DNA from: an uncultured Pelagibacteraceae bacterium | GTDB lineage: Bacteria > Pseudomonadota > Alphaproteobacteria > Pelagibacterales > Pelagibacteraceae | DNA length: 42,838 bases | Assembly (NCBI GenBank): GCA_902620265.1 | Contig: CACNHI010000004.1 | Coordinates: 1 to 42,838, forward strand | Reading direction: 5' to 3' | In this document: one piece after another, positions 35,030 through 36,262 of the stretch | Numbering within the stretch: position 1 is the stretch's first letter | How the letters are laid out: every line of letters starts with the position of its first letter | Translations under genes and position numbers: made by a program | The notes under the pieces: generated by a model | The model's database searches: none | Seen by the model: only the letters and a program-made list of their open reading frames with translations | What the model was told of the DNA's origin: nothing

Positions 35030-35209
35030 TTAAGCTTGATTAGTACAGATATCTTTAATTACTGGGGTATTAGCACAATCACCACACTTAGTAACTTTTA
35101 CGATACATCCATCATCAAGTTTTTTAACATCAACAACTCTATGACATTTTGAACATGTTGCTGATATTGTTAAACCACATTTTCTACAATTGTGTGTTTC
35201 TAGTTCCAT
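35030..35209 (-). CDS. 59-aa 8-Cys putative zinc-ribbon protein (not in ORF track)
   Basis: Manual translation MELETHNCRKCGLTISATCSKCHRVVDVKKLDDGCIVKVTKCGDCANTPVIKDICTNQA*; paired CxxC motifs. Confidence 0.75.
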   Translation of the reverse strand: MELETHNCRKCGLTISATCSKCHRVVDVKKLDDGCIVKVTKCGDCANTPVIKDICTNQA

Positions 35210-35275
35210 ATAAATAAAATAAGAAAAAAAAATTATTTTTCAACTTTTTTTAAATTTTTGATAATAAATCTCAAA

Positions 35276-35294
35276 ACTAATGATAATCATTATC
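35276..35294. promoter_or_regulatory. Fur-box-like palindrome 1
   Basis: ACTAATGATAATCATTATC, 17/19 match to the classical GATAATGATAATCATTATC by eye. Confidence 0.75.
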
Positions 35295-35334
35295 ATAAAA
35301 AAATTGCATAAAATTGATAAAAAAAAATTTAGTT

Positions 35335-35353
35335 GGTAATGATTATCATTAAC
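35335..35353. promoter_or_regulatory. Fur-box-like palindrome 2
   Basis: GGTAATGATTATCATTAAC, 16/19 match to the classical Fur box; 10 bp before the ATG at 35364. Confidence 0.75.
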
Positions 35354-35363
35354 AAAAAATAAA

Positions 35364-35807
35364 ATGAAAAAAAAAGATACTTCAAAACCATTAATGCTCT
35401 ATTTAGCTGAAGCTATTTATTTTCAATTAATTGAAATAAAGAAGTCAGAACAACAAATATCAAACGTTGAACTTGTAGAAAGATTTTTAGCAACTAAAGA
35501 ATTTGACGAAATTAAAAAAGGTAATTTTCATGATAATCTTTTTGCTAAAATAAAAGAGAATAATTTCATTAATTTTGAAACTGGAGATAAAATTCCAAAA
35601 GAAACTATTGATTTGCTTAACTTACAAAAGAATACAGTTATTAAACAATTTAAAGAAAATAATGAAGCTTATTTTGCGAAAAGTTCATTTCCATTATCAA
35701 ATTCACAAAACGCCTTTGGTTTGATTTGGAGAATGTGTGAAACATATGAGCTTTGGTGTAAAGAAATAAAAAAAGAAAAATTAATTAAGCTTAATTTTAT
35801 AGATTAA
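35364..35807 (+). CDS. Hypothetical protein, candidate metal-regulated
   Basis: 147-aa ORF directly downstream of tandem Fur-like boxes; no family recognised. Confidence 0.8.
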   Translation: MKKKDTSKPLMLYLAEAIYFQLIEIKKSEQQISNVELVERFLATKEFDEIKKGNFHDNLFAKIKENNFINFETGDKIPKETIDLLNLQKNTVIKQFKENNEAYFAKSSFPLSNSQNAFGLIWRMCETYELWCKEIKKEKLIKLNFID

Positions 35808-36262
35808 TTAGATGGAATAAAGATTAAACAAAGACCGTTATTACAAAATCTTTTTCCTGTTTCTGAGGGTCCGTCATCAAATACATGACCATGGTGTGCT
35901 CCACAATTAGCACAATGGTATTCAATACGTTTCATTCCAAATGAATAATCAACTTTTGTTTTAAATGCACCCGGAAGAGCTTCAGAAAATGATGGCCACC
36001 CTGTCCCACTATCAAACTTTGCATTAGAGGAAAATAGTTTAGCATTACAATTTGCGCAGTGATAAAAACCTTCTCTAGTCTCATAATTCAAACTGCTTGT
36101 AAATGGTCTTTCTGTACCTTCTTTAAACATTATTTTCTTTTGTTCTTCGGTAAGTGAATTGTTAATTATTTTTTTTTCCACTTTTGCTAGTAGAGATTTT
36201 GGTAATAAAAAAAGTAAAGCTAAAGTTGAGAATATTGACTTAATAAATTTTCTTTTATTCAT
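35804..36262 (-). CDS. msrB: Peptide-methionine (R)-S-oxide reductase with N-terminal signal/anchor
   Basis: GTERPFTSSLNYETREGFYHCANCNAKLFSSNAKFDSGTGWPSF, MKRIEYHCANCGAHHGHVFDDGPSETGKRFCNNG. Confidence 0.95.
   Translation of the reverse strand: MNKRKFIKSIFSTLALLFLLPKSLLAKVEKKIINNSLTEEQKKIMFKEGTERPFTSSLNYETREGFYHCANCNAKLFSSNAKFDSGTGWPSFSEALPGAFKTKVDYSFGMKRIEYHCANCGAHHGHVFDDGPSETGKRFCNNGLCLIFIPSN

Follow-up and report, generated by a model that had tools for sequence, protein, structure and literature searches.

A candidate Fur operator conserved upstream of an eight-cysteine microprotein gene in Pelagibacterales

A minus-strand gene for a 59-aa, eight-cysteine microprotein, labeled ZR here, is a probable new and strongly conserved member of the iron regulon of the Pelagibacterales (the SAR11 order). 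Comparison of promoters across the order indicates that the predicted double Fur-type operator beside this gene belongs to ZR and not to the divergent gene on its other side. SAR11 bacteria are dominant in surface ocean waters, which can be iron-limited, and their iron regulation is known from few genes. Reported SAR11 Fur boxes lie before components of Fe3+ ABC transporters and before FTR1 (PMC4771312), and no classic Fur box was reported for strain HTCC1062 (PMC3090418). ZR, a tiny protein that is easy for annotation to miss, has the best-conserved Fur operator seen in this analysis; it would point to an unstudied part of the SAR11 iron response, and could serve as a metatranscriptome marker for SAR11 iron stress. 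None of the papers in the literature searched describes ZR or its operator.

Genomes and Comparisons

The window is the whole stretch of DNA analyzed, 42,838 nucleotides of contig 4 of a 773,710-base, 66%-complete assembly (G000) from a genus of Pelagibacterales. Order-wide searches covered 397 Pelagibacterales genomes, and the relatives compared include Pelagibacteraceae single-cell genomes and MAGs. Promoters were compared at 80 named ZR-orthologue loci over 170 bp upstream of each gene, with 2602 windows taken from those same loci as the control. Genome-wide site tallies are pattern searches.

Operator Architecture

A first-pass annotation of this DNA had described a minus-strand 59-aa open reading frame with eight cysteines and a plus-strand 147-aa open reading frame, flanking two Fur-type boxes with centers 59 bp apart, the second of them 10 bp before the plus-strand ATG. 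Both reading frames and both boxes are confirmed at the coordinates in Table 1. The gap between the two genes is 154 bp. Both are real genes, given their low pN/pS against close relatives (0–0.05 for ZR and 0.10–0.20 for the 147-aa gene), which indicates purifying selection. Boxes A and B each contain an exact TAATGATNATCATTA core. The box B 19-mer stops 10 bp short of the 147-aa start codon, and its core lies 12 bp from it.

Table 1. Coordinates of the predicted operator and its flanking genes in the window.
Feature	Position	Strand	Sequence	Description
ZR	35030..35209	-		59 aa; C8, C11, C19, C22, C35, C42, C45, C55; main predicted operator target
Possible ZR promoter	35216..35243	-	TTGAAA, 16 nt, TATTTT	Consensus match only
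Fur-type box A	35276..35294		ACTAATGATAATCATTATC	Core 35278-35292, exact 7-1-7; ZR-proximal, -83 to -69 from ZR ATG
Fur-type box B	35335..35353		GGTAATGATTATCATTAAC	Core 35337-35351, exact 7-1-7; ZR-distal
147-aa protein gene	35364..35807	+		All-helical prediction; operator shared only in the window's clade

Within the window, two cores were seen at no more than one mismatch where 0.12 were expected. The genome is AT-rich, and 2 of 100 dinucleotide shuffles also gave two cores, so by itself this count is suggestive and not overwhelming. The 19-mer, allowing up to three mismatches, was matched four times (two sites, both strands) against 0.11 expected, and none of 100 shuffles gave four. The doubt left by statistics from the window alone, namely that AT-rich inverted repeats such as these might arise by chance, is removed by the comparison across ZR orthologues described below.

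Conservation of the Predicted Operator with ZR

A palindrome with at most two mismatches lies within 170 bp upstream of ZR at all 80 loci, which are mutually related and hence not 80 independent observations, but which span divergent clades; the same search found it in 18 of 2602 control windows (0.7%). At no more than one mismatch the counts are 57 of 80 and 0 of 2602, and two separate palindromes occur at 79 of 80 loci compared with 5 of the control windows. Among dinucleotide shuffles, 1.7% reach a palindrome with up to two mismatches. A stringent two-box pattern was found in 12 of the 397 genomes, each time directly upstream of ZR, and its reversed control gave none. The earlier identification of the boxes as Fur-type holds, and they are conserved; a chance origin, refuted by the orthologues in several genera and by the control windows, is left with a negligible probability.

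Box A is conserved upstream of ZR orthologues. The two operators are 59 bp apart in the window, and at most other loci the spacing is 30 to 60 bp. The boxes, a TTGAA element and the start codon follow in the same order across ZR loci. This TTGAA element, seen again in other ZR promoters, corresponds to the predicted -35 element of the window, and both boxes lie upstream of it and not over it.

On the other hand, the neighbors of ZR vary over the 80 loci, and include the 147-aa gene, DUF2061 (a frequent neighbor), a Redoxin-family protein, a peptidase-like gene, a predicted transporter and others. The boxes are kept in at least five genera and in many neighborhoods, also where the 147-aa neighbor is missing; at least one box is retained by orthologues in the further genera represented by G316, G306, G180, G257, G283, and G301. 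A paralogous family, ZR-B, has no Fur box at the loci inspected. Since the boxes stay with ZR while its neighbors change, and ZR-B is without them, the predicted operator travels with ZR. Beyond the order, a class-wide search recovered a single homologue of the eight-cysteine type, in G653, and no box precedes it.

Iron as the Predicted Signal

The first-pass annotation proposed a unit responsive to iron or zinc, and of these two metals the comparison retains iron. Across the 397 genomes, the exact core was counted at 52 places, as opposed to 18 for the reversed control. Twenty-eight of these places are before ZR, five are before sfuC, which encodes an Fe3+-binding protein (in G198, G346, G173, G106, and G320), and one is before a 67-aa gene plus DUF2061. 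The other 18 are within, or by their matched letters apparently within, conserved coding sequences; the G142 and G105 sites among them were not read one by one. In G105, which is among the closest relatives of the window, a box with one mismatch precedes an sfuC-sfuB-sfuA operon, whose SfuC is strongly related to Fe3+-binding proteins of solved structure. The proximal sfuC core sits near -55 to -64 from the ATG, a geometry that resembles that of ZR. In Ca. Pelagibacter ubique, the sfuC transcript rises 16-fold in iron limitation, the largest increase listed (PMC2864753). Because the same kind of site fronts iron-uptake genes, ZR is very probably part of the iron-starvation response.

In its sequence, its position less than 150 bp from the start and its tandem sites, this arrangement is like the proteobacterial Fur box (a 19-bp or 7-1-7 repeat), and the sharing of sites with Fe3+ ABC transporter genes is likewise a feature of proteobacterial Fur regulons. 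It differs in its predicted target, a microprotein that belongs to no known family.

The relatives encode three FUR-family regulators: a Fur beside miaB, an Irr beside fabAB and katG, and a Zur beside znuBC. The fur gene is present in the close relatives G142, G105, G315, and G378; G000 itself, an assembly that is only 66% complete, yielded no FUR-family gene. In G165, fur (G165:C5:56622-56997; L082, L083) is in two overlapping pieces with internal stops, either a broken gene or an assembly error.

With a Zur encoded by the relatives and a protein that resembles a zinc ribbon (albeit below the family cut-off, as detailed below), ZR could be imagined as a zinc-responsive gene under a Zur operator. 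However, the znuA promoters of close relatives carry a different, Zur-type palindrome, GTTATAATATAAC, in six of the seven genomes read, and no Fur-type (TGATAAT-type) core, while the ZR box is common to the iron importer instead. With GTTATAATATAAC at znuA, the zinc operators of this lineage stand clearly apart from its iron operators. Regulation of ZR by Zur was therefore rejected as very unlikely, and the signal predicted at the ZR operator is iron, not zinc. In six of these znuA promoters (L281–L285 and L287) GTTATAATATAAC is perfect, with a similar second copy slightly upstream.

The identity of the regulator within the family is a finer question. Alphaproteobacterial Fur and Mur are hard to separate by sequence, and the best PDB matches of the SAR11 Fur include proteins from Rhizobium and Magnetospirillum, so that another FUR-family protein or a manganese sensor (a Mur-like Fur) might be considered in its place. 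Two points argue against this and make such a regulator quite improbable: Fe3+ ABC transporter genes have the same box, and sfuC has been reported to respond to iron (PMC2864753).

Proposed Regulation

Fur is the presumed binder at the predicted boxes, where it would act as a repressor. When iron is sufficient, Fe2+-Fur dimers would occupy both palindromes and the ZR promoter would be shut; upon iron starvation, Fur would be released and ZR made along with the SfuABC Fe3+ importer. Membership of ZR in the Fur/iron regulon is the firmest part of this model. Repression by iron is somewhat less firm but still likely, and the same holds for membership and repression taken jointly. The boxless G653 homologue and the lack of a FUR-family gene in the incomplete G000 assembly count against the model.

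Activation also fits the layout, as both boxes are upstream of the predicted promoter and its conserved TTGAA element, and direct activation by Fur is known in other bacteria (PMC3751524); Fur or a relative would then switch ZR on when iron is plentiful. The promoter call is weak, however, and the box geometry is like that of sfuC, which is induced by iron limitation (PMC2864753). Activation is accordingly regarded as unlikely next to repression.

The Divergent 147-aa Gene

Relatives of the 147-aa protein are present in 207 of the 397 genomes. It had been described as unrecognized, and this description stands: there is no Pfam match above chance, no NCBIfam family and no PDB sequence match, and the AF2 model, a confident all-helical fold (pLDDT 86), found no counterpart by Foldseek in either PDB or BFVD at E ≤ 0.001. 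A viral origin of this gene or of ZR was also rejected, as neither has relatives in IMG/VR.

The divergent layout with both boxes, and the position of box B near the 147-aa ATG, would suggest that the two genes form an old unit responsive to iron, which the operator serves on both sides to the same degree. The divergent pair with its boxes is found at 10 of the 80 named loci (L169–L177 and L182), which constitute the clade of the window. Within this clade box B is retained, with its left half partly decayed in L173 and one change in L182. Outside it, the orthologues read, at 61% identity or less, are located behind acetyltransferase/racemase genes near purEK and sarcosine-oxidase-like genes, and no box was found in those loci, whereas ZR keeps its boxes without the 147-aa neighbor. 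The expectation that both boxes would be conserved with orthologues of both genes therefore held for ZR (80 of 80) and failed for the 147-aa gene beyond the window's clade. A related 138-aa gene does adjoin ZR at two other loci, though in a different arrangement. An old unit with two equal targets is improbable on this evidence, and the boxless orthologues in other neighborhoods led to the rejection of the 147-aa gene as the primary partner of the boxes.

These data suggest that the 147-aa gene acquired or shares the operator of ZR only in the small clade of the window, given that 147-aa orthologues elsewhere are without boxes, and that the putative two-gene divergent unit exists only there. 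The earlier proposal of one unit is upheld for this clade; elsewhere, the boxes follow ZR only. Within the clade, the 147-aa gene is probably iron-controlled, because its start lies so close to the outer core.

Two further observations concern the surroundings of these genes. The 138-aa relative of the 147-aa protein is convergent to ZR in L206 and L208 (AG-439-G19 and AG-410-P11), and the ZR and 147-aa families thus adjoin in two different arrangements. A gene with a SelR (MsrB) domain at 35804-36262 of the window adjoins the 147-aa gene, and a similar gene is directly upstream of ZR-B in G066 and G155 (L250, L251), possibly by coincidence.

The ZR Protein

ZR relatives, including the more distant paralogue type, were detected in 172 of the 397 genomes at E ≤ 0.001. 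Not every genome of the genus has a ZR match: it is absent from several that are complete or nearly so (for example G005, G011, G020, and G026). All eight cysteines are invariant in 21 orthologues. ZR had been called a zinc-ribbon protein, and of this the eight cysteines are established, while the ribbon is a prediction: the match to Pfam DZR scores 17.5 bits (E = 0.005), below the gathering cut-off of 27.3, orthologues reach E-values down to 0.001 and still fall below the cut-off, and AF2 gave a poor model (pLDDT 49). The fold of ZR may be built on one or two metal sites of the Cys4 type, two being the natural guess.

In size and in its repeated CxxC pairs, ZR is like DZR and the haloarchaeal C(P)XCG microproteins (HVO_2753, PDB 6YDH). 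The profile similarity is weak, with an E-value of 0.18 for 6ydh_A, and the last four cysteines of ZR (C35, C42, C45, and C55) are spaced otherwise. HVO_2753 binds zinc at one of its two predicted sites only, and similar haloarchaeal microproteins are often without the expected zinc (PMC11241148). A further comparison is ZR-B, a paralogous family of 61–64-aa proteins in SAR11 and other Alphaproteobacteria that end in ...KIKSPxCCGxDM... Its N-terminal half is homologous to that of ZR (E about 1e-4 to 1e-10); it differs in the C-terminal half, as well as in the lack of a Fur box at inspected loci.

The FbpA/B/C proteins of Bacillus are small, basic, Fur-controlled proteins of an iron-sparing response. 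They are cited in earlier work on SAR11 iron limitation (PMC2864753), and share with ZR a tiny size and predicted Fur control; ZR differs in its eight invariant cysteines. No homology is claimed, and a similarity of role is a guess. Tentatively, ZR may act as a small metal-binding adaptor when iron is low. A bolder and more speculative reading would make it a core low-iron effector, derepressed from Fur, with iron or zinc as its bound metal and the redirection or sparing of iron as its task. ZR would then be a protein adaptor doing the job that small RNAs (RyhB) or FbpABC have in other bacteria, and, equally speculatively, its double operator would move with the gene as a cassette.

Other Candidate Sites

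A few further sites were noted in the course of the searches. In G004, an outgroup from the other family of the order, a Fur core lies beside a perfect TTTAGAATTATTCTAAA, which we take to be an Irr-type (ICE) motif, before the 67-aa and DUF2061 genes (L094:1480-1515). In Caulobacter, mutation of fur raises DUF2061 (PMC3751524), and in Shewanella DUF2061 has a Fur motif (PMC12442407); both observations speak for placing ZR, its frequent neighbor, in the Fur regulon. In genomes of genus g5 (L150–L154), a 56-aa protein with a GCSPC motif is encoded downstream of the box-controlled sfuC, a small cysteine protein in an iron operon. Finally, a TGATAATCATTCTCA palindrome overlaps the start of a gene that by eye resembles hemB in G142 and G105 (L160 around 1571-1585 and L163 around 1585-1599). 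It may mark another target of Fur or be a coincidence of the coding sequence.
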